Shown in pieces: positions 1 through 42,621 of a DNA stretch of 64,000 nucleotides. Origin of the DNA: Phenylobacterium sp. LH3H17 (GTDB lineage: Bacteria > Pseudomonadota > Alphaproteobacteria > Caulobacterales > Caulobacteraceae); contig NZ_CP101283.1 of the NCBI RefSeq assembly GCF_024298925.1, forward strand, positions 620,001-684,000. The letters run 5' to 3'. A program made the position numbers and the translations under genes. The notes beneath the pieces were generated by a model. The model was not told where the DNA came from and ran no database searches. It saw only the letters and a program-made list of their open reading frames with translations. Within the stretch, counting starts at the first letter, position 1. The number at the start of each line of letters is the position of its first letter.

Positions 1-748
1 CGAGCGCCCGGGCCGCGGCCTTGCCGTCGATCACCACCACGCCGTCGGCGGCGGCGAAGTCGCGAACCCGGCGCAGCAGGCGGCCGGCCACGCGCGGCGT
101 GCCCCGGGCGCGGGCGGCGATCTCGGCGGCGCCGTCGGCCGCCAGGCTCAAGCCCATCTTCAGCGCCGCCTGGGCCAGCACCTTCTGCAGCTCGCCATGG
201 GTGTAGAACTCCAGGCGCAGGGGGATGCCGAACCGGTCGCGCAGGGGCGTGGCCAGCAGGCCCGCCCGCGTGGTGGCCGCCACCAGGGTGAAGGGCGCGA
301 GATCGATGCGGATCGAGCGGGCCGAGGGTCCCTCGCCGATCATCAGGTCCAGCACATGGTCCTCCATGGCCGGATAGAGGATCTCCTCCACATTGGCGGC
401 CAGGCGGTGGATCTCGTCGATGAACAGCACGTCGCGCGGTTCGAGATTGGTCAGGATCGCTGCCAGGTCCCCGGCCTTGGCCAGGACCGGGCCGGAGGTG
501 GCGCGGAAGTTCACCCCCAGCTCGCGGGCGACGATCTGGGCGAGCGTGGTCTTGCCCAGGCCCGGGGGGCCGAACAGCAGCACGTGGTCCAGCGCCTCGG
601 CCCGGCTCTTGGCCGCCTCGATGAACACCTTGAGATTGCTCTTGGCCTGCTCCTGGCCGACGAACTCGGCCAGGGTCTGCGGGCGCAGGGCCTTGTCGTG
701 GGTCGGGGCGTCCTGCGCCTGGGGCTCGCTGGAGACGATCCGGGTCAT
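1..748 (-). CDS. ruvB: Holliday junction branch migration ATPase RuvB (C-terminus beyond window)
   Basis: RuvB is the hexameric AAA+ motor that, with RuvA, drives branch migration of Holliday junctions during recombinational repair. The visible 249 codons start at an ATG (746-748) and carry the family core: Walker [10 protein letters not shown] at about residues 60-68, Walker B FIDEIHRL near residue 108, and the sensor/arginine-finger region [15 protein letters not shown]. Full-length RuvB is about 340 residues, so roughly the last quarter (winged-helix DNA-binding domain) lies left of base 1. It is the last gene of a ruvC-ruvA-ruvB order read leftwards, but 265 bp containing an inverted repeat separate it from ruvA. 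Identification is firm. Confidence 0.97.
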
Positions 749-20428: not shown

Positions 20429-20454
20429 AACGGCCTTACGGTCCCAGCAGTTCC
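20429..20454 (-). promoter_or_regulatory. Sigma-EcfG-type promoter for the DUF883-like gene
   Basis: On the minus strand: GGAAC (20450-20454), 17-bp spacer, CGTT (20429-20432), matching the alphaproteobacterial general-stress consensus GGAAC-N16/17-CGTT. It lies 34 bp upstream of the start codon, with an AGGAGA ribosome-binding site between. Confidence 0.75.
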
Positions 20455-33838: not shown

Positions 33839-35425
33839 TCAGATCTGCCGGGTGCGGCCTTCCCAATAGGGGGCGCGGACCTTGTTGCGCTGGATCTTGC
33901 CGGCCTCGGATCGCGGCAGTTCGGTGACGAAGTCCAGGCTGCGGGGCACCTTGAAGGCGGGCAGGGTCTTGCGGCCGAAGTCGAGGATCTCCTGGGCCAG
34001 CTGGTCGGAAGGCTGGTAGCCCGGCTCCAGCAGGATCACGGCCTTGACCTGTTCGCCCCACTCGTCGTGCGGCACGCCGACCGTGGCCGAGTCGGCGACG
34101 GCGTCGTGCTTGATCAGCTCATTGTCGACTTCCTGGGGATAGATGTTCACCCCGCCCGAGATGATGGTCTCGGCGTTGCGGCCTGTGAGGAACAGGTAGT
34201 CGTCCTCGTCGAAATATCCGACGTCGCCCATGGTGAAGAAGCCCTCCTTGCGGGAGGCTTCGGTCTTCGCGTTGTCCTTGTAGTAGGTGAAGCCGCCGCC
34301 AGGCGGCAGCTGGTGGTAGATGGCCCCGGGCACGCCATTGGGCAGTTCGTTGCCCTCTTCGTCGAGGATCCGGCACTGCAGCAGCGCAGGGCGCTTGCCG
34401 ACGCTGCCGGGCTTCTTGAGCCATTCCTCGGAACTGATGGCGAAGCCCGCGCCGCCTTCCGAGCCCGCATAGTACTCCGACAGGATCGGGCCGAACCACT
34501 CGATCATGGCGTGCTTGACCTCGGGCGGGCAGGGCGCCGCGCCGTGAACGATGTATTTCACGTGGCTGACGTCGTACTTGGCCTTCACTTCCGGCGGCAG
34601 GGCCAGCAAGCGCTGGAACATGATCGGCACCAGGTGCAGGTGCGTGACCTTCTGTTCCGATATGGTCTTCAGGACCTGTTCGGAATCCCACTTGTCGATG
34701 AAGTGCAGCGGCACGCCGGCGCCCATGGCGGCGCGGACGTCGAAGGCCAGCGGCGCGGCATGATAGGCGGGACCGGCGCAGAGCTGAACCGAGGTCTCGT
34801 GATCATAGCCGCGCATGGCGTACATGGCCTGCGGCGTCACCGCGGGAACCGGGCGGAACACACCTTTCGGCCGGCCCGTGGTGCCCGAGGTGTACATCAT
34901 CGAGTTGCCGAGAATGGGATCAGGGATGTCTGAGCCGTCGAGCGGCGCGAGCGCGGTGTCGTAGTCGACGAAGCCGGGGATGTCGCCGCCAATGGAGAGC
35001 TTCAGCACCAGGTCGGGGCATTGCTCGGCGGCTGGCCCGACGCTGGCCACGCGGACCTCGCCGACCAGGACCTTGGCTTCGCAATCCTTGATGATGTAGG
35101 CGACCTCGTCGACCGTCAGGTGCCAGTTGACCGGCGTGAAGCGGATGCCGGCGCGCAGGGTGGCGGCCAGGACCTCCACGAACTCGGCGCGGTTGGAGCA
35201 GACCAGGGCCAGCGAATCGCCGGCCTCCAGGCCGTGTTGACGGAAGAGGCGGGCGAGCCGGTTGGCGTTGGCGTTGACCTCGGCGAAGGTCCTGACGCGG
35301 CCGTTGGGGTCGATGACCGCTGGCTTGTCTGGATGCACCTTGGCCCAGACCGCCGTCGTCATGCCGGTCGCCGCGGCCGCTTCCAGGGCCTGATCCAGGC
35401 TCACGCGCTCTTTCAAATCTTCCAT
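33839..35425 (-). CDS. AMP-forming acyl-CoA synthetase / ligase
   Basis: 528 residues, ANL superfamily. The AMP-binding P-loop MYTSGTTGRPKG, the LSEYYAGSEGG motif, GDVGYFDEDDYLFLTGR with its Asp/Arg pair, and the C-terminal catalytic Lys in SEAGKIQRNK are all visible. Activates a carboxylic acid as CoA thioester; long-chain or aromatic acids are likely. The start ATG 35423-35425 with GGGAGG upstream gives the normal length; a longer frame to 35746 is not needed. Divergent from the KaiC-like operon. Confidence 0.92.
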   Translation of the reverse strand: MEDLKERVSLDQALEAAAATGMTTAVWAKVHPDKPAVIDPNGRVRTFAEVNANANRLARLFRQHGLEAGDSLALVCSNRAEFVEVLAATLRAGIRFTPVNWHLTVDEVAYIIKDCEAKVLVGEVRVASVGPAAEQCPDLVLKLSIGGDIPGFVDYDTALAPLDGSDIPDPILGNSMMYTSGTTGRPKGVFRPVPAVTPQAMYAMRGYDHETSVQLCAGPAYHAAPLAFDVRAAMGAGVPLHFIDKWDSEQVLKTISEQKVTHLHLVPIMFQRLLALPPEVKAKYDVSHVKYIVHGAAPCPPEVKHAMIEWFGPILSEYYAGSEGGAGFAISSEEWLKKPGSVGKRPALLQCRILDEEGNELPNGVPGAIYHQLPPGGGFTYYKDNAKTEASRKEGFFTMGDVGYFDEDDYLFLTGRNAETIISGGVNIYPQEVDNELIKHDAVADSATVGVPHDEWGEQVKAVILLEPGYQPSDQLAQEILDFGRKTLPAFKVPRSLDFVTELPRSEAGKIQRNKVRAPYWEGRTRQI

Positions 35426-35633
35426 CAAATCCTCCCGTCGCCGCGGGCCGGAGGAACGGCGGCGCGGCTCTTTTCTATGGTGCGAAACGAATCTGTGGGG
35501 CCCGATCCGGCGCGAAATATGCGCTGGCGAGGCGGGCCCTTCCGTCTCGTAAGCCCACCATGACAGGGCTTCACGGCGCGGACAACGGCGCCCCCGATCC
35601 AAACAATGACTGGATGGGCGGCCGAGCGGTCCG

Positions 35634-35658
35634 GGAACGCGCCCGAAAACAGGGCGTT
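35634..35658 (+). promoter_or_regulatory. Sigma-EcfG-type promoter for the KaiC-like/histidine-kinase operon
   Basis: GGAAC (35634-35638), 16-bp spacer, CGTT (35655-35658): an exact match to the alphaproteobacterial general stress response consensus. Transcription would start about 40 bases upstream of the GTG at 35706. The rest of the 280-bp gap before it contains only the upstream promoter region of the divergent acyl-CoA synthetase. Confidence 0.8.
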
Positions 35659-35705
35659 GAAATCGCCTGAAGGGGCCAGGAGCCTCGTGGCAAGCGAGAG
35701 AGCGA

Positions 35706-37208
35706 GTGAAGGATAAGGCAGCGGGCGTCCGCGACCTGGCGAGCACCGGAATAGATGGCCTGGACGATATCCTGCGCGGCGGCTTCGCCCGGCGGCGGGT
35801 CTATCTGATCGAGGGTACGCCCGGCACCGGCAAGACGACGATGGCCCTGCAGTTCCTGATGGCCGGCGCGGAGCTAGGCGAGAAGGGATTGTACATCACC
35901 CTGTCGGAGACCCGGGAAGAGCTGCTGGAGACGGCGCGATCGCACGGCTGGACGATTAGCGATCTCATCGAGATCTTCGAATTGACGCCGCCTGAGAACC
36001 TGCTCGACGAGCAGCAGCAGCAGAGCCTGCTCTATTCGTCGGACCTGGAACTGGGCGAGACCACGCGAATCATCTTCAACCAGATCCAGAATGCCAAGCC
36101 GACCCGGGTGGTGATCGACAGTCTGTCCGAGATCAGGCTGCTGGCCGGCGGCTCCCTGCGCTATCGCCGCCAGATCCTGGCGCTCAAGCACTATTTCGCC
36201 AAGCACAACACCACCGTGATGCTCTTGGACGACATGACCGCGGACGTCCTGGACAAGACTGTCCACAGCGTGGCGCACGCCGTCGTGCGGCTGGAGGAAC
36301 TTGCGCCGATCTACGGCAAGGAGCGCCGACGGCTGCGGATCATCAAGTATCGCGGCCAGGAGTTCCGCGGCGGCTATCACGACTTCGCCATCCGTCCGGG
36401 TGGGCTGGTGGTGTTTCCGCGCCTGGTGGCCGCTGAGCATCGGGCCAGCTTCACACGCGAAGCGCTGCCCAGTGGGGTGGCGGGCCTAGACACCCTGTTG
36501 GGCGGAGGCGTCGAACGGGGATCGAGCGCCCTGATTCTAGGGCCGGCTGGGGCGGGAAAGTCCCTGATGACCCTGCAGTTCGTGGCCTCGGCCATCGCGC
36601 GGGGCGAGAAGGCGGCGCTGTTCGTCTTCGACGAAGAGATCAACCTGCTGTTCGATCGCGCCCGGGGCCTGGGGTTTGACCTGGAAGCCCTGCGCGATGC
36701 CGGGAGCCTTTTGATCGAGCAGGTGGACGCGGCCGAACTGGCGCCGGGGGAGTTCACGCATCGAGTTCGAGCCTGCATGGAGGCCAAGGATCTCCGCACC
36801 ATCGTGATCGACAGCCTGAACGGCTACCAGGCGGCCATGCCGGAAGAGCAGTTCCTGGTCCTGCACATGCACGAACTGCTGCAGTTCCTGAACCGCAGCG
36901 GGGTCACAACCTTCCTGACCATCGCCCAGCACGGGCTGGTGGGGGACATGCAGGCCCCGGTGGACATCACCTACCTGGCCGACACGGTGATCCTGCTGCG
37001 TTACTTCGAGGCCAATGGGCGCGTGCGGCGGGCGATGTCGGTGATCAAGAAGCGCACCAGCGCCCATGAGGACACGATCCGGGAATACCAGATCGGCGCG
37101 GACGGCCTCACCGTCGGCGCGCCCGTGGTCGGTTTCCAGGGCGTGCTTCGGGGCGTCCCGACCTATGTCGGCCAGAACCATTCCTTGCTGGCGGACTCCG
37201 GCGCGTGA
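35706..37208 (+). CDS. KaiC-like double RecA-domain ATPase
   Basis: 500 residues with two KaiC/RadA-type RecA domains: Walker A GTPGTGKTT at about 37-45 and GPAGAGKSL at about 279-287. KaiC signatures recur in both halves: STGIDGLDDILRGG and SGVAGLDTLLGGG, ITLSETREEL and VFDEEINLL, VVIDSLSEIR and IVIDSLNGYQ, YRGQEFRGGYHDF. At the autophosphorylation site of cyanobacterial KaiC (Ser431/Thr432), this protein has DITYLADT, i.e. Thr/Tyr. The catalytic Glu pairs are altered to SE and DE. It is thus a KaiC paralog of the non-cyanobacterial type with likely ATPase activity; no kaiA or kaiB is nearby. GTG start; the stop overlaps the downstream kinase start (GTGA). Confidence 0.9.
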   Translation: MKDKAAGVRDLASTGIDGLDDILRGGFARRRVYLIEGTPGTGKTTMALQFLMAGAELGEKGLYITLSETREELLETARSHGWTISDLIEIFELTPPENLLDEQQQQSLLYSSDLELGETTRIIFNQIQNAKPTRVVIDSLSEIRLLAGGSLRYRRQILALKHYFAKHNTTVMLLDDMTADVLDKTVHSVAHAVVRLEELAPIYGKERRRLRIIKYRGQEFRGGYHDFAIRPGGLVVFPRLVAAEHRASFTREALPSGVAGLDTLLGGGVERGSSALILGPAGAGKSLMTLQFVASAIARGEKAALFVFDEEINLLFDRARGLGFDLEALRDAGSLLIEQVDAAELAPGEFTHRVRACMEAKDLRTIVIDSLNGYQAAMPEEQFLVLHMHELLQFLNRSGVTTFLTIAQHGLVGDMQAPVDITYLADTVILLRYFEANGRVRRAMSVIKKRTSAHEDTIREYQIGADGLTVGAPVVGFQGVLRGVPTYVGQNHSLLADSGA

Positions 37209-38923
37209 GTCCGGCTCGACATCCCCGAGCGGAAGTCGCCCTCGTGCTGACGCCGCTCGGTCGTGACTCCGAGATCGCCGCCTCGCTGATGCGCGAGGCC
37301 GGCATCGAGGTGCTGGTCTGCTCGACGCTGGAAGCCCTGTGCCATGAGCTGACCTATGGAGCGGGATTCGCGCTGGTCACCGACGACGCCCTGCAGTCCT
37401 CCGATCTCTCCGGACTCGCAGCCTGGGTCGGCGAGCAACCGCCGTGGTCGGATTTTCCCTTCGTCCTGCTTACCGAGCGCGGCGGCGGCCTGGAACGCAA
37501 CCCCAGCGCCTCGCGGCTCACCTCGGCCCTCGGCAATGTCATCTTCCTGGAGCGGCCCTTCCACCCCACCAGCCTGGTGAGCGTCGCGCGCACCGCCTTG
37601 CGCGGCCGTCGGCGGCAGTACGAGTCACGCCAGCGCATCGAGGAGATCCGCGAGGCGGAACACACCTTGGAGCGCCGCGTCGAGGAGCGGACCTCCGAGC
37701 TGGCCGCCGCCAACCGCCAGCTGCTCGGCCAGATAGAGGAGCGCGAGAAGGTCGAAGCCGCCCTTCGCCAGGCCCAGCGGCTGGAGGCTGTCGGACAGCT
37801 CACCTCCGGCGTGGCCCACGACTTCAACAACCTGCTCACCGTGGTGATCGGCAACGCCCGTCAGCTCGCCAAGGGCGATGTGGAGCCCAACGTCCGTCGC
37901 CGGCTGGAGATGATGGAACAGGCCGCCTCCCGCGGCGCGAAGCTGACCGCTCAGCTGCTGGCCTTCTCACGCCGCCAGAAGCTGGAGCCCCAGCTCGTCG
38001 ACCTGAACCACACGGTCGCCAACATGCGCGACCTGCTGCACAGCACCATGGGGGGCTCCACCCGCATCGAGACCGTGCTGCATCCGGAGCTGTGGACCGC
38101 GCTGATCGACCCGACCCAGATCGAGCTGGTCATCCTCAACCTGGCGATCAACGCCCGCGACGCCATGGAGGTGGGCGGCACCCTGGTCGTCGAGACCGGC
38201 AACGCGACCCTGGGAGAACCACAGCGGCCCGAGGAGCCTCCGGGGGGCGAATATGTGATGGTCTCGGTGTCCGACACGGGTTCGGGCATGAGCCCCGAGG
38301 TCTTGGCGAAGGCCTTCGAACCGTTCTTCACCACCAAGATGGTCGGCAAGGGTTCGGGCCTGGGCCTGAGCCAGGTGTTCGGGCTGGCCAAGCAATCCGG
38401 CGGCGGGGTGCGCATCGACACCCGGCCAGGCGAGGGAACCTCGGTGAAGGTCTATCTACCCCGGGCGCGGGCCGCGAGCGCGCCGCGGACGGAACGCCGG
38501 GCGGCGGTCCCGCCGAGAGCCGATGGCGATCGGGTGGTGCTGCTGGTCGATGACGACAGCGCAGTGCGGGAGATCACCGCCACCCTGCTGACCGAGCTGG
38601 GCTATACGGTGGTGGAGGCCGGCAGCGGCGGGGCGGCGCTGGACATGCTGCAACGGCGCGCCGACATCGATCTGATGCTGCTCGACTTCGCAATGCCCGG
38701 GATGAACGGCGCGGAGGTGGCGCGCGAGGCCCGGGCCCGACGACCGGACCTGCCGATCCTGTTCGTCACCGGCTATGCCGACACCGAGGCGCTCGCCCAT
38801 GCCGACGAATGCGGGATCATCCAGAAGCCGTTCGACGATCATGAACTGGCGACCAAGGTCGGCTCCGTCCTGCGGCCCGCCGATCCGACGGTGGTGGCTT
38901 TTCGGGGACGCTCCGAGGCCTAG
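37205..38923 (+). CDS. Hybrid sensor histidine kinase with N-terminal pseudo-receiver
   Basis: 572 residues. An N-terminal receiver-like domain (about 10-120) lacks an obvious phospho-Asp and may be a pseudo-receiver, as in clock-output kinases. A coiled-coil linker (about 130-195) follows, then HisKA with TSGVAHDFNNLL (His about residue 205), HATPase_c (NARDAM, DTGSGM, GKGSGLGLS), and a C-terminal receiver with DDDSAVRE and phospho-Asp in LMLLDFAMPG (about 493), ending in the Lys of IQKPF. Translationally coupled to the KaiC-like gene. It shares a CTAG stop overlap with the convergent DUF2177 gene. Confidence 0.92.
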   Translation: MSPARHPRAEVALVLTPLGRDSEIAASLMREAGIEVLVCSTLEALCHELTYGAGFALVTDDALQSSDLSGLAAWVGEQPPWSDFPFVLLTERGGGLERNPSASRLTSALGNVIFLERPFHPTSLVSVARTALRGRRRQYESRQRIEEIREAEHTLERRVEERTSELAAANRQLLGQIEEREKVEAALRQAQRLEAVGQLTSGVAHDFNNLLTVVIGNARQLAKGDVEPNVRRRLEMMEQAASRGAKLTAQLLAFSRRQKLEPQLVDLNHTVANMRDLLHSTMGGSTRIETVLHPELWTALIDPTQIELVILNLAINARDAMEVGGTLVVETGNATLGEPQRPEEPPGGEYVMVSVSDTGSGMSPEVLAKAFEPFFTTKMVGKGSGLGLSQVFGLAKQSGGGVRIDTRPGEGTSVKVYLPRARAASAPRTERRAAVPPRADGDRVVLLVDDDSAVREITATLLTELGYTVVEAGSGGAALDMLQRRADIDLMLLDFAMPGMNGAEVAREARARRPDLPILFVTGYADTEALAHADECGIIQKPFDDHELATKVGSVLRPADPTVVAFRGRSEA

Positions 38924-39336
38924 CCGAACTTCGCCTCCGCCCAGCGATAGGCGAAGTATCCCGCCGTGGCGGCGCAGGCCGTGAGCAAGGTCCCCCAGCC
39001 GATGTCGGCCAGGGTGATCCTTGTGGACCAGACCTTCAGCGTCGCCTGGTTGGTCAGGTCGTAGGTGGCGTAGGCCACGAACCCCAGCAGGGCGCCGTTG
39101 AGCAGAGCCCGGGTCCAGCCGGCGTTCTCCCGCGCGGCGGGCAGAATGGCCAGCAACAGAACGCCGCCGATATAGATCACGTAGAAGGCCACAGCGGGCG
39201 CCAAGCGGAAGGCGTCCGCCAGGACCTCATTGAGGGCGGGTCGGTAGAGCCTGGGGCCGACCATGGTCAGCCAGATCGCATCGACGACGGCGAAAGTTCC
39301 AGCACAGGCGAAATAGGCGATGACGAACTTCAGCAT
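38920..39336 (-). CDS. DUF2177-family membrane protein
   Basis: 138 residues with four membrane segments: MLKFVIAYFACAGTFAVVDAIWL, AVAFYVIYIGGVLLLAIL, LNGALLGFVAYATYDL and GTLLTACAATAGYFAY. FVAYATYDLTNQATLKVW is the DUF2177 signature. Genes of this family are often found with cyclopropane-synthase-like and FAD amine-oxidase genes, as here; role unknown. The ATG 39334-39336 overlaps the stop of the upstream methyltransferase gene by one base, implying coupling. Confidence 0.88.
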   Translation of the reverse strand: MLKFVIAYFACAGTFAVVDAIWLTMVGPRLYRPALNEVLADAFRLAPAVAFYVIYIGGVLLLAILPAARENAGWTRALLNGALLGFVAYATYDLTNQATLKVWSTRITLADIGWGTLLTACAATAGYFAYRWAEAKFG

Positions 39337-40370
39337 CAGGCCGCCACCGGCCGCAGCCGATAGTGGCTGACACCCCACTCGGCGCCGCGGCGATGGCCGA
39401 ACAGGCCGGCCGTGGCGAGGAAGAACAGCCGCCAACGCCGGCGCCACAACACTGCCTGGTCGCCATAGACCTCGGCCAGGATCGTACGGATCATCGCGGC
39501 GTTGCGGTCGTAATTGGCCAGCCAGTCGTTGGCGGTCCGCTCATAGTGCGCGCCGCTCCAGCGCCAATCGGCCTCGATCGTGAACAGGTCGGGGAACTGG
39601 CCCGCCAGATCGTGGCTGGGCATGACCCCGCCGGTGAAGAAGTGCTGGGCGATCCAGTCGGCCTCGTCGTCCACATCGAAGCGATAGGGCGTGGTCTTGT
39701 GGGTGAAGACGTGCAGGAACAGCCGCCCGTCGGGCTTCAGCCAGCCCCTGGCGCGGGTCAGCAGGGCCCGCCAGTTGGCCATGTGCTCGAACATCTCCAC
39801 CGAGACGATACGGTCGAAGTCGGCGGCCGGGGCGTCGAAATCGTTCATGTCGGCGGTGATGACGGTGAGGTTCGTCAGGCCCTGCTCGGCCGCGCGGGCA
39901 CGGATGAACGCCCCCTGGCTGGCGGAATTGGACACGCAGGTGACCCGGGCCATGGGCAGGGTCCGCGCCATCCACAGCGATAGCGATCCCCAGCCGCAGC
40001 CGAGCTCCAGGATCTGCTGTCCGTCCTTGAGGTCGGCGTGGACGGCGGTCTCCAGCAGGGCGGCTTCCTCGGCCTGGGCCAAGGTGGTGGTCGGGGTCGG
40101 ATAGAGGCCGGAGGAATACTTGAGCTGCGGCCCCAGCACGGCCTCGAAGAAGGCGGCGGGGAGTTCGTAGTGCTGCTCATTGGCCGCGCCGGTGTGCTCG
40201 GCGATGGGGCGCAGTTCCATTTCGCGGGCGAAGACGGCCGCCGCCTCGGGAGGGCTGGCGGCCAGCTGACGGCGGGCCTGGGCGACCAGCAGGTCAACCG
40301 CCGCCCGGCGCACCAGGTCGGGTAGGGGCGCGCCCTCGAAGGCATGGATAGTGTTGGCGACCAGGCTCAT
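39336..40370 (-). CDS. Cyclopropane-fatty-acyl-phospholipid-synthase-like SAM methyltransferase
   Basis: 344 residues. SAM motif ILELGCGWGSLSLWMA, preceded by LKYSSGLYPTPTTTLAQAEEAALL, and followed by VTCVSNSASQ, VITADMNDFD and VSVEMFEHMANW: the cyclopropane-synthase/coclaurine-N-methyltransferase branch. Family members methylenate or methylate unsaturated fatty acyl chains or other substrates at the membrane. Start ATG 40370 has a GAGAGA site upstream; ATG 40403 in frame is the alternative. Divergent from an FAD amine-oxidase-like gene, coupled to the DUF2177 gene. Confidence 0.88.
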   Translation of the reverse strand: MSLVANTIHAFEGAPLPDLVRRAAVDLLVAQARRQLAASPPEAAAVFAREMELRPIAEHTGAANEQHYELPAAFFEAVLGPQLKYSSGLYPTPTTTLAQAEEAALLETAVHADLKDGQQILELGCGWGSLSLWMARTLPMARVTCVSNSASQGAFIRARAAEQGLTNLTVITADMNDFDAPAADFDRIVSVEMFEHMANWRALLTRARGWLKPDGRLFLHVFTHKTTPYRFDVDDEADWIAQHFFTGGVMPSHDLAGQFPDLFTIEADWRWSGAHYERTANDWLANYDRNAAMIRTILAEVYGDQAVLWRRRWRLFFLATAGLFGHRRGAEWGVSHYRLRPVAA

Positions 40371-40422
40371 GTCGATCTCTCGGGTGCGGACGTCATCAGC
40401 CATACGCACCGCCGTCCGTTTC

Positions 40423-40439
40423 GGATGCGGCCTGCATCC
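40423..40439. promoter_or_regulatory. Inverted repeat in the divergent lipid-gene promoter region
   Basis: GGATGC-GGCCT-GCATCC, six-base perfect arms, midway between the divergent starts at 40370 and 40508. Likely an operator coordinating the two transcription units. Confidence 0.45.
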
Positions 40440-40507
40440 ATTTCCAGCCGCAACCGTAATGCTCCGAGGGGAGAGCGATCGCGCTCGAGGATAAGGGACC
40501 AAGCCAG

Positions 40508-41845
40508 GTGACCGTGACTGCAGCCGAGACTCCGCTTCGCATCGCCGTAGTCGGCGGAGGTATCGCCGGCCTGTCCGCCGCTTGGATGCTGGGACAACGC
40601 CATCAGGTCGTGCTGTTCGAGGGCGACAATCGCGTGGGGGGCCATGCCAACACCGCCGAGGCGCCCGGCCGCAAGGGACCAGTCCCGGTGGACACCGGCT
40701 TCATCGTCTATAACGAGCCCAACTACCCGAACTTCACCGCCCTGTTGGAGCACCTGGGCGTGGCAAGCCGCCCCGCCGACATGGCGCTCAGCGTCTCTTT
40801 CGACGAGGGCGAGTTCGAGTACTCCTCGGGCGCCCTGTTCGCCCAGCTCAGCAATCTGTTCTCGGCGCGGTTCTGGTCGATGCTGCGCGACGTGAACCGG
40901 TTCTACCGCCAGGGGCCGCGTGACCTGGCCGGCCTGGACGCGCCGCTCACCTCGCTGGACGACTACCTGACGGAGAAGGGGTACTGCCAGGCCTTCCGGG
41001 ACGACCACCTGATCCCTCAGGCCGCCGCCATCTGGTCGACCCCGGTGGGCGCGATCGCCGACTATCCGGCGGCGGCGCTGATCCGCTTCTTCCAGAACCA
41101 CGGGATGATGAGCCTGTTCGGGCGCGGCAAATGGCGCACGGTGGCCGGCGGCAGCCGCGCCTATGTGGGCCCTCTGGCCGCGGCCTTCGGCGGCGAGATC
41201 CGAACGGGGGTGCGGGTCAGCTCCATCCAAAGGGATGCGACAGGCGTGACGATCCGCGACGCCCGGGGCCATGCCGAGCGCTTCGATCAGGTGGTGATCG
41301 CCACCCATGGGGACACGGCGCTGTCGCTGCTGGATGACGCGGGCCCGGAGGAGAGGCGGCTGCTGTCGGCCTTCCGCTACACGCGAAACCTGGCGGTGCT
41401 GCACACCGATCCGAGCCTGATGCCGCGGCGCCGGGCAGCCTGGACGAGCTGGAATCATATCGGCCGGCGCGACGCGCCCAATGAGGGCTGCGTCACCTAT
41501 TGGATGAACCGGCTGCAGTCGATCAAGGACGCCGGCGACCTGTTCGTCACCCTCAACCCCACCCGCGAGATCGCGCCCGAGACCGTGATCCATACCGACG
41601 TTTACGACCACCCGCTGTTCGACGCCGGGGCGATCGCCGCCCAGGAACAACTCTGGTCGCTGCAGGGCGTGCGTCGGACCTGGTTCTGCGGCTCGTATTT
41701 CGGCCACGGCTTCCACGAGGACGCCCTGCAGTCGGGCCTGGCCGTCGCCGAGACGCTGGGTGATGTGCGCCGGCCCTGGACCGTCGACGACGAGTCGGGC
41801 CGCATCCATGCGCGACCGGCGCAGCCCCTGGAGCGAGCCGCGTGA
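40508..41845 (+). CDS. FAD-dependent amine-oxidase-like (NAD(P)-binding) oxidoreductase
   Basis: 445 residues. N-terminal dinucleotide motif VVGGGIAGLSAAWML (about 15-30) with EGDNRVGGHANT, the flavin-binding pattern of the MAO/phytoene-desaturase superfamily; a C-terminal FAD-binding stretch WFCGSYFGHGFHEDA. Proteins with this domain next to DUF1365 and cyclopropane-synthase-like genes are associated with unusual fatty-acid formation and singlet-oxygen responses in alphaproteobacteria. GTG start 40508 (or GTG 40514 with AGGTGA site). Co-translated with the DUF1365 gene (GTGA). Confidence 0.9.
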   Translation: MTVTAAETPLRIAVVGGGIAGLSAAWMLGQRHQVVLFEGDNRVGGHANTAEAPGRKGPVPVDTGFIVYNEPNYPNFTALLEHLGVASRPADMALSVSFDEGEFEYSSGALFAQLSNLFSARFWSMLRDVNRFYRQGPRDLAGLDAPLTSLDDYLTEKGYCQAFRDDHLIPQAAAIWSTPVGAIADYPAAALIRFFQNHGMMSLFGRGKWRTVAGGSRAYVGPLAAAFGGEIRTGVRVSSIQRDATGVTIRDARGHAERFDQVVIATHGDTALSLLDDAGPEERRLLSAFRYTRNLAVLHTDPSLMPRRRAAWTSWNHIGRRDAPNEGCVTYWMNRLQSIKDAGDLFVTLNPTREIAPETVIHTDVYDHPLFDAGAIAAQEQLWSLQGVRRTWFCGSYFGHGFHEDALQSGLAVAETLGDVRRPWTVDDESGRIHARPAQPLERAA

Positions 41846-42621
41846 CGCCGTTCGCGTCCGGAATCTATCCGGGCGTCGTGACCCACACGCGGGTCAAGCC
41901 CCGGGCGCATCGGCTGCGCTACCGCATCTTCATGCTGCTGCTGGATCTGGACGAGATCTCCGCCCTGGACCGGGGGCTGAGGTTGTTCGCCCACAATCGG
42001 TTCGCGCTCACCGGCTTCCATGAGGCCGATCATCTGAACGGCTCGGGGGCGGACCTGAAGGCCCAGGTGGAGGCCCATCTCGCCGCCGCCGGCGTCGCCC
42101 ACGGCGGGGCGGTGCGGATGCTGGCCATGCCGCGAATCCTGGGCGGCGTGTTCAATCCGCTCACTGTCTATTTCTGCCACCGGCGAGACGGGATCCTGTC
42201 GGCGATCCTTTATGAGGTGACCAACACCTTCGGCGAGCGGCACAGCTACGTGATCGACGCCGGCGGCCGGCAAGGCTGTGACAAGGCCTTCTTTGTCTCG
42301 CCGTTCATGGACATGGAGCTCTCCTACGTCTTTCGGATCGCGCCTCCGGGCGAGCGGGTCTCGGTTGGCGTGGATGTTTATGACGCCGATGGCCTGGTGC
42401 TGGCGACGGCCTTCGGGGGAAGGCGCGTGGAGCTCTCGGACCGCGCTCTGTTCCGGGCTTGGCGAGACCATCCCCTGATGACCTTGGGCGTCATGGCCGC
42501 GATCCATTGGGAGGCCCTGAAGATCTGGCGCAAGGGCGAGCGAGTGCGGCGGCGGCCCGCGCCGCCGGCGGCTCCGGTCACCGTCGTCCGGGCGCGCAAT
42601 CCTTCGCCCGCAGGCGGTTGA
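41842..42621 (+). CDS. DUF1365-family protein
   Basis: 259 residues. Typical DUF1365 elements: GVVTHTRVKPRAHRLRYRIFMLLLDLDE at the N-terminus, RMLAMPRILGGVFNPLTVYFCH, VTNTFGERHSY and DKAFFVSPFMDM. Usually found downstream of FAD amine-oxidase genes of the same cluster and linked to formation of modified membrane fatty acids. The start GTG overlaps the upstream stop. The C-terminal ~25 residues are Pro/Arg-rich and probably disordered. Confidence 0.9.
   Translation: MTPFASGIYPGVVTHTRVKPRAHRLRYRIFMLLLDLDEISALDRGLRLFAHNRFALTGFHEADHLNGSGADLKAQVEAHLAAAGVAHGGAVRMLAMPRILGGVFNPLTVYFCHRRDGILSAILYEVTNTFGERHSYVIDAGGRQGCDKAFFVSPFMDMELSYVFRIAPPGERVSVGVDVYDADGLVLATAFGGRRVELSDRALFRAWRDHPLMTLGVMAAIHWEALKIWRKGERVRRRPAPPAAPVTVVRARNPSPAGG

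Follow-up and report, generated by a model that had tools for sequence, protein, structure and literature searches.

The stretch analysed here, called the window, comprises 64,000 nucleotides of the 4.27 Mb genome of Phenylobacterium sp. LH3H17 (contig NZ_CP101283.1, positions 620,001 to 684,000), numbered from its first letter. It carries a kaiC-like gene followed directly by a gene for a hybrid histidine kinase. The kaiC-like gene (35706..37208, plus strand) encodes 500 amino acids with two RecA-type KaiC domains, CI and CII (PF06745, E = 1.5e-77; best sequence relative in the PDB KaiC 8zn5, 9.7e-61), and its closest relatives, at 79% identity, were found in Phenylobacterium. The start codon was placed at the GTG at 35706, the sole in-frame ATG, GTG or TTG past an upstream stop at 35658. 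The kinase gene (37205..38923, plus strand; 572 amino acids) shares with the end of kaiC a GTGA stop-start overlap of 4 nucleotides (37205..37208, plus strand). Because of this overlap co-transcription of the two genes is very likely, and since the neighbours on either side, an AMP-binding enzyme gene upstream and a gene for a DUF2177 membrane protein downstream, run on the opposite strand, the pair has the appearance of an isolated two-gene unit. A putative EcfG-type promoter of the form GGAAC-N16-CGTT (GGAACGCGCCCGAAAACAGGGCGTT; 35634..35658, plus strand) ends 47 nucleotides before the kaiC start codon. A sequence-only reading of this DNA had described a double RecA-domain KaiC overlapping a hybrid kinase, with an exact match to this promoter pattern just upstream, and our analysis confirmed both the layout and the match.

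The kinase showed the full set of parts of a HisKA-type hybrid histidine kinase: HisKA (residues 196-258), HATPase_c (302-421) and Response_reg (445-552). The core (37790..38467, plus strand) contains the phosphoacceptor H205 in HDFNN together with NARDAM, DTGSGM and GSGLGL, and the C-terminal receiver (38537..38860, plus strand; PF00072, E = 9.6e-24) has its DDD, D and K in place (VDDD, LLD, QKP); we take these motifs to have their customary kinase and receiver meanings. The N-terminal domain (residues 10-120; 37232..37564, plus strand) is predicted to have a receiver fold, and it is the domain that we propose to read KaiC. A long helix (residues 121-156; 37565..37672, plus strand) links it to the kinase core, and in an alignment of 130 of the 133 complete KaiC-kinase pairs described below this helix retained R135 and Q138 in all copies and R137 in 129. 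The place of the phospho-Asp, residue 60 in a HMMER alignment to FixJ, was occupied by Asp in 19 of the 130 copies (the window copy included), by Glu in 73 and by Ser in 17. No copy had Asp or Glu at residues 16 or 17, which we read as the place of the acidic pair from strand 11-15 of the predicted model, and the conserved receiver Lys was replaced by R117 in all 130. The sequence-only reading, in which this domain seemed to lack a phospho-Asp, needs a correction on that residue, Asp60 being present here; with acidic pair and Lys lost, the domain does not have the make-up of a phosphorylatable receiver. The folds of KaiB and SasA were not among the 50 matches listed in a VIA-align structure comparison of the domain model, a list in which absence excludes nothing.

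The two genes proved to be almost inseparable. When species genomes were scanned, 568 relatives of the window KaiC were confirmed and the best 80, from Alpha-, Beta- and Gammaproteobacteria, were kept; a homologue of the kinase N-terminus lay directly downstream of KaiC in every one of these 80 loci; the kinase is frameshifted in two of them (L055 and L070). The set was enlarged to 139 loci by adding the window and 58 further regions, with the partial KaiC matches G324, G356 and G400 and the split G071 left out of the locus set. The pairing was found in 137 of the 139 by a script rule and in 138 after a recheck of L130, where the domain follows KaiC with an in-frame stop and had been missed by the rule; removal of three duplicate records gave 135 of 136. 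The kaiC and kinase genes overlapped by 4 nucleotides in 72 and by 1 nucleotide in 14 of 134 non-repeated loci. One apparent KaiC-kinase fusion (G620, a frame of 1572 amino acids) was rejected, the open frame lying in another reading frame and KaiC in its own; the other 28 loci examined contained no fusion, the genes being in separate frames or KaiC being absent (L170). No third gene family recurred in flanks of up to 4 kb around the 80 loci outside Pseudomonas, where none was seen at more than 6 of 52.

An even sample of 289 alphaproteobacterial genomes gave the same picture. Matches were called strong at 90 bits or more for the domain and at 350 bits or more for a KaiC of this branch. The domain was strong in 18 genomes with 19 copies, and all 19 lay directly after a KaiC of this branch, one of these pairs being split over two contigs. 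Both partners were strong in 18 genomes, KaiC alone in 1, the domain alone in none, and neither in 270 (Fisher p = 1e-27). A reverse search from the domain found 40 copies at E = 1e-15 or better in 36 of 398 genomes of the phylum; 25 of the 26 copies examined had this KaiC directly upstream, and the one without it was a weak copy. In the Caulobacteraceae, the family of the window, a KaiC match at E = 1e-60 or better was obtained for 43 of 149 genomes. The domain and this branch of KaiC thus co-occur nearly exclusively. Whether the pair stays together had been set beforehand as a check on the reading, and the outcome (80/80, 138/139 and 19/19 strong copies) favoured it; since the pair is conserved as neighbours, a kinase controlled by KaiC would be the likeliest interpretation of these genomic data.

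The kinase core attached to the domain is not constant. A domain scan of 55 of the 81 kinases in the window and the kept loci (22 from Pseudomonas, the frameshifted L055 and L070 and the truncated L020 and L038 were left out) found HisKA in 46, HWE in 9, a Response_reg match in 45 and any given PAS family in up to 16. With models built from members, the 130 aligned pairs were classified as 116 HisKA, 13 HWE and 1 unclassified, and 11 of the 13 HWE types are only 346-395 amino acids long; the domain is retained with the core exchanged or the C-terminal receiver missing. On a quick KaiC tree (105 of the 130 rows, 25 from Pseudomonas being dropped) the kinase class switches 8 times, at least 6 of these changes being forced by well-supported branches, while the domain and the pairing stay; the class label is still more clustered than expected by chance (shuffled mean of 12.5 changes). 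KaiC distances correlated with those of the domain at r = 0.91 versus 0.65 for the kinase core (116 pairs; bootstrap 95% range of the difference 0.20-0.34). The correlations fit a plug that would belong to KaiC and a kinase that would be exchangeable, with shared descent alone accounting for part of them. A rival idea is that the two proteins are co-regulated within one stress regulon and do not touch, the pseudo-receiver acting inside the kinase, on its own DHp domain or C-terminal receiver, without KaiC. Pseudo-receivers can indeed act by contacts within a kinase or two-component system, as stated in a review (PMC12632262). We nevertheless regard this explanation as unlikely here, given that the domain almost always accompanies this KaiC (19/19 strong copies, 25/26 examined) and is kept through exchange of the core or loss of the C-terminal receiver (HWE, 13/130).

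We then consider what kind of KaiC is involved. Both P-loops were intact at all 81 loci compared. As catalytic pair, CI has S67-E68 and CII has D309-E310; S67, D309 and both second Glu residues were found in all 81; the place of the Glu pair is where we take it to be in KaiC, mapped through an alignment to the sequences of KaiC structures. T422-Y423 (36969..36974, plus strand) lie at the places of S431-T432 of Synechococcus elongatus KaiC, with T and Y in 81/81 loci; among the 130 KaiCs residue 422 is T or S in all, and residue 423 is Y in 127 and F in 3. The circadian phosphosites S431/T432 are thus replaced by T/Y in the window protein, which scored below both circadian KaiC equivalog cut-offs (278.1 versus 408 bits and 179.7 versus 546.25 bits). 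Model searches of the whole genome gave 0 matches for KaiA and 0 for KaiB, neither gene having been visible to the sequence-only reading, so that the KaiA and KaiB of a circadian KaiABC clock are both lacking from the genome; in 14 control genomes the KaiA model matched S. elongatus only and the KaiB model matched 6, over its cut-off in 1. Because it falls far under the circadian cut-offs and KaiA and KaiB are absent from the genome, we assign the window protein to another branch of KaiC paralogues. KaiB was found in 13 of the 289 alphaproteobacteria, over the cut-off in 9. All 9 were near a different KaiC and never on a contig carrying this branch; 3 of the 18 pair-bearing genomes, a group that includes the window genome, also hold kaiB near another kaiC on other contigs. 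A second double-domain KaiC is encoded in the Phenylobacterium genome itself (L089:5005-6624, minus strand, on G000:C1) and is followed with a 1-nucleotide overlap by a PAS and HisKA_2/HWE-type kinase (L089:3893-5005, minus strand), so both double-domain KaiC proteins of this genome directly precede kinases. A profile search of the genome with the pseudo-receiver matched only the window copy and nothing at this second pair.

These residues speak for and against an hourglass or circadian timer in which autophosphorylation at T422/Y423 would cycle slowly, with neither KaiA nor KaiB taking part, and the kinase would be the output. Such a function agrees with the conserved phosphosite places (T/S in 130/130, Y in 127/130) and with the P-loops and second catalytic Glu present in 81/81. 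We know of no KaiC with Tyr or Phe as the phosphorylation site at the T432 place, which here is Tyr in 127 and Phe in 3 of the 130; the first catalytic Glu is Ser in CI and Asp in CII throughout (S67 and D309, each 81/81), and both the equivalog scores and the absence of KaiA and KaiB point the same way. De Luca et al. (PMC3164672) had proposed a timer for gene pairs of the same kind, and Pseudomonas KaiC, which may be of another clade, has stress roles without evidence for circadian function according to a citing paper. Taken together, a timer appears quite improbable for this locus.

The site at which KaiC could be read was considered from the cyanobacterial protein, where KaiB binds the B-loop, residues 116-123 (PMC12084410), and SasA uses the same loop (PMC6378743). 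Residues 107-114 of the window KaiC align with that loop, within the segment 107-118 (SLLYSSDLELGE; 36024..36059, plus strand). In the 95 KaiCs of the main clade the 12-residue windows starting at 105 to 107 were the three most conserved of the protein (0.985-0.986), above the P-loops, with window 106-117 ranking 1 and 107-118 ranking 2 of 478; over all 130 KaiCs window 107-118 ranked 45. The contrast between clades is a hint and not a test, because one deep split separates them: the main clade is invariant where coupling of KaiC and domain would matter, and the remaining variation is confounded by that split. Positions 109, 110, 119 and 120 of the pseudo-receiver are among those that vary in the diverged clade.

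Besides the promoter-like site before kaiC, a single further strict site (N16/17) was present in the 64 kb, at 20429 of the minus strand, and genome-wide the pattern GGAAC-N15-18-CGTT is not in excess (93 matches versus 98 for a reversed control), so a single site is weak evidence. The regions upstream of kaiC were more informative. They were compared for 136 of the 139 loci (L093, L094 and L100, records held twice, were dropped), of which 106 are alphaproteobacterial, L029 and L075 included. GGAAC-N16/17-CGTT was found in 12 of these 106 non-redundant regions versus a shuffle mean of 0.26, and the relaxed GGAAC-N16/17-NGTT in 21 versus 0.53, an enrichment of about 40-fold; relaxed-motif controls gave 2 for the reverse strand, none for spacing 10/11 and 2 for spacing 22/23. 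The motif was present in 6 of 49 regions from the window's family and in none of the 28 from Pseudomonas or the 2 from Betaproteobacteria. A search of the genome for the EcfG system, which covered NepR, found that protein (56.9 bits), and nine GGAAC-N15..18-CGTT sites lie within the 10 kb around nepR (G000:C1:443405-452949), two of them back to back at 445994-446081. The locus thus has both marks of a sigma-EcfG regulon, a motif upstream and an EcfG system in the genome as read from NepR. Could the match still be due to chance, with the operon outside the regulon? The genome-wide counts and the lack of the site in close relatives such as L010, L012 and L028 allow it, and we regard it as possible for this single site but doubtful in view of the clustered sites beside nepR and of the enrichment at the right strand and spacing. 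As a class, the motif is probably functional, judging from its distribution upstream of kaiC.

We propose that the two genes form a KaiB-less KaiC signalling module in which KaiC is made with its own receptor kinase and read via the pseudo-receiver, and we consider this, on balance, probable. Like others of its family, the KaiC-like ATPase is expected to be hexameric. It would be produced together with the kinase, and the pseudo-receiver would dock on it, probably at the CI face used by KaiB and SasA in cyanobacteria. The nucleotide or autophosphorylation state of KaiC could then set the balance of kinase and phosphatase activity through the long connecting helix, and in this genome the signal would leave by way of the HisKA core and its C-terminal receiver, a CckA-ChpT-like phosphorelay being a possible destination. 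Relatives carry this domain joined to HWE kinases or to additional PAS sensors. In the window, stress probably raises expression of the operon through sigma-EcfG. The data point to the domain as the means of reading KaiC without KaiB in such bacteria. More tentatively, a degenerate receiver domain may have taken over the KaiC docking site of KaiB and SasA, in a branch never seen beside KaiB here, and become a plug to whichever kinase is attached (HisKA hybrid, HWE or PAS-bearing), wired into the general stress response in several alphaproteobacteria.

Several observations weigh against this proposal. The distant KaiC G015/L124 (352 bits) is not followed by the domain. A weak copy of the pseudo-receiver kinase (77 bits) at L170 has no KaiC adjacent, although a normal pair is encoded elsewhere in the same genome, G704. 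In 21 of the 289 genomes the domain matched only weakly, at 31 bits or less, and was scored as absent, and extra copies can be missed because the searches score at most 13 candidates per genome for the domain and at most 5 for KaiC. Residue 60 remains Asp in the window kinase. Over the whole main clade the difference between domain and kinase core was not significant (0.87 versus 0.83, range -0.005 to 0.088, 84 pairs), and it returned, significantly, when Pseudomonas was removed (0.67 versus 0.45, 56 pairs). In the 35 diverged KaiCs the segment equivalent to the B-loop ranked only 292 of 478 and was not specially conserved; on these alignments one docking site common to both KaiC clades is unproven. 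Finally, the promoter motif was absent from 85 of the 106 alphaproteobacterial upstream regions (80%). Because of this figure and of the 28 of 28 Pseudomonas regions without it, EcfG control would be lineage-specific at best and not a defining part of the module. The stress promoter claimed by the sequence-only reading is accordingly plausible at this locus and enriched as a class, and does not extend to most relatives.

The missing motif is also what a pure energy gauge would lead one to expect. KaiC conformation would be set by ATP/ADP and the kinase would report energy, and neither a phosphorylation cycle nor control by EcfG would be involved; Rhodobacter KaiC is described as set by the ATP-to-ADP ratio (PMC10076222). 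The phosphosite residues (T/S in 130/130, Y in 127/130) would be superfluous for a pure gauge, and the motif is about 40-fold over shuffles across the 106 regions, which together make this version rather unlikely.

Gene pairs of this type belong to a kind already described. In 2011 De Luca et al. defined a gene context in which a specific kinase gene comes after kaiC and kaiB is missing, demonstrated co-transcription of the pair in Ramlibacter by reverse transcription PCR, and proposed a family of KaiC-interacting kinases with an hourglass function (PMC3164672). The Ramlibacter tataouinensis pair KaiC/Nt-HK (Rta_04330/Rta_04340), of their 'dark-blue' kaiC context, resembles ours in having a kinase with a conserved N-terminal domain directly after kaiC, no kaiB adjacent and, by the published description, phosphosite pairs SY, TY or SF. 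Their features recur here: a kinase directly 3' (138 of 139 loci), no kaiB in the genome and a TY pair. For the conserved domain, they pointed to receiver and SasA/KaiB similarity alike (PMC3164672), whereas we obtain a predicted receiver fold. New here are the co-occurrence counts, the swapping of kinases, the EcfG-type motif and the exceptions to the absence of kaiB from the genome (3/18), together with evidence that bears on the nature of the conserved domain and ties it to KaiC. No later test of KaiC-kinase interaction was among the matches listed in the open-licence literature; the module is genuine, widespread and little-tested.

Other known systems are less similar. CikA, a clock-linked kinase with a pseudo-receiver, carries that domain at its C-terminus. 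The window kinase has the pseudo-receiver N-terminally and a C-terminal receiver with motifs, in a genome without KaiB, whereas the CikA domain binds KaiB (PMC12632262). SasA likewise has an N-terminal domain that reads KaiC, of a KaiB-like thioredoxin fold (PMC5520375, PMC6378743); the window kinase has no such domain, its own being predicted to have a receiver fold. The window KaiC extends about 16 residues beyond its alignment with the KaiC of 8dba, a protein of 568 residues. We presume 8dba to be Rhodobacter KaiC. The Rhodobacter KaiBC hourglass shares with our locus a KaiA-less KaiC outside cyanobacteria and differs in needing KaiB and a C-terminal coiled coil (PMC10076222), neither KaiB nor more than those 16 residues being present here. 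A 2017 survey noted that SasA homologues outside cyanobacteria are without the KaiB-like domain and concluded that KaiC output there must differ from the Synechococcus type (PMC5520375). The pseudo-receiver kinase is an obvious candidate output for this branch, in a compact two-protein system that is also widespread, the domain being present in 36 of the 398 genomes sampled from the phylum. If the proposal is true, KaiC would sense state in general and work with exchangeable kinases, the cyanobacterial clock would be one special case of this, and the degenerate receiver plug would be an independent solution for reading KaiC.

The route by which the signal leaves the kinase can be addressed from model matches. 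In NCBIfam the whole kinase scored highest with a general kinase subfamily (372.6 bits versus a cut-off of 631), followed by two CckA models, also below cut-off, and a ChpT-type phosphotransferase is encoded elsewhere in the genome (115.7 bits); a CckA-like relay is a guess because it draws on these sub-cut-off matches and the ChpT-type gene. Of the 28 Pseudomonas loci, 26 have a short gene on the opposite strand just 3' of the kinase; its product (141 amino acids in L080) by eye resembles a single receiver and is a possible phosphorelay partner in that genus. At L115 (G045), in a frame of 432 amino acids, the domain precedes PAS domains alone and no kinase domain was found; the KaiC of this locus is divergent and sits on a long branch. 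Scans of 35400-39100 yielded nothing useful, with one sigma-70 promoter-like site, on the minus strand (0.3 in shuffles), and one terminator-like site, within the end of the kinase gene (1.4 in shuffles). Downstream of the pair, at 38920-42621 of the window, lies a cluster of genes for DUF2177, a cyclopropane-synthase-like methyltransferase, a flavin amine oxidase and DUF1365, a set that we take to be typical of ChrR/sigma-E membrane-lipid stress regulons. Frames similar by eye to this cluster recur 3' of the pair in related loci such as L008 and L010, in families of 3 loci.

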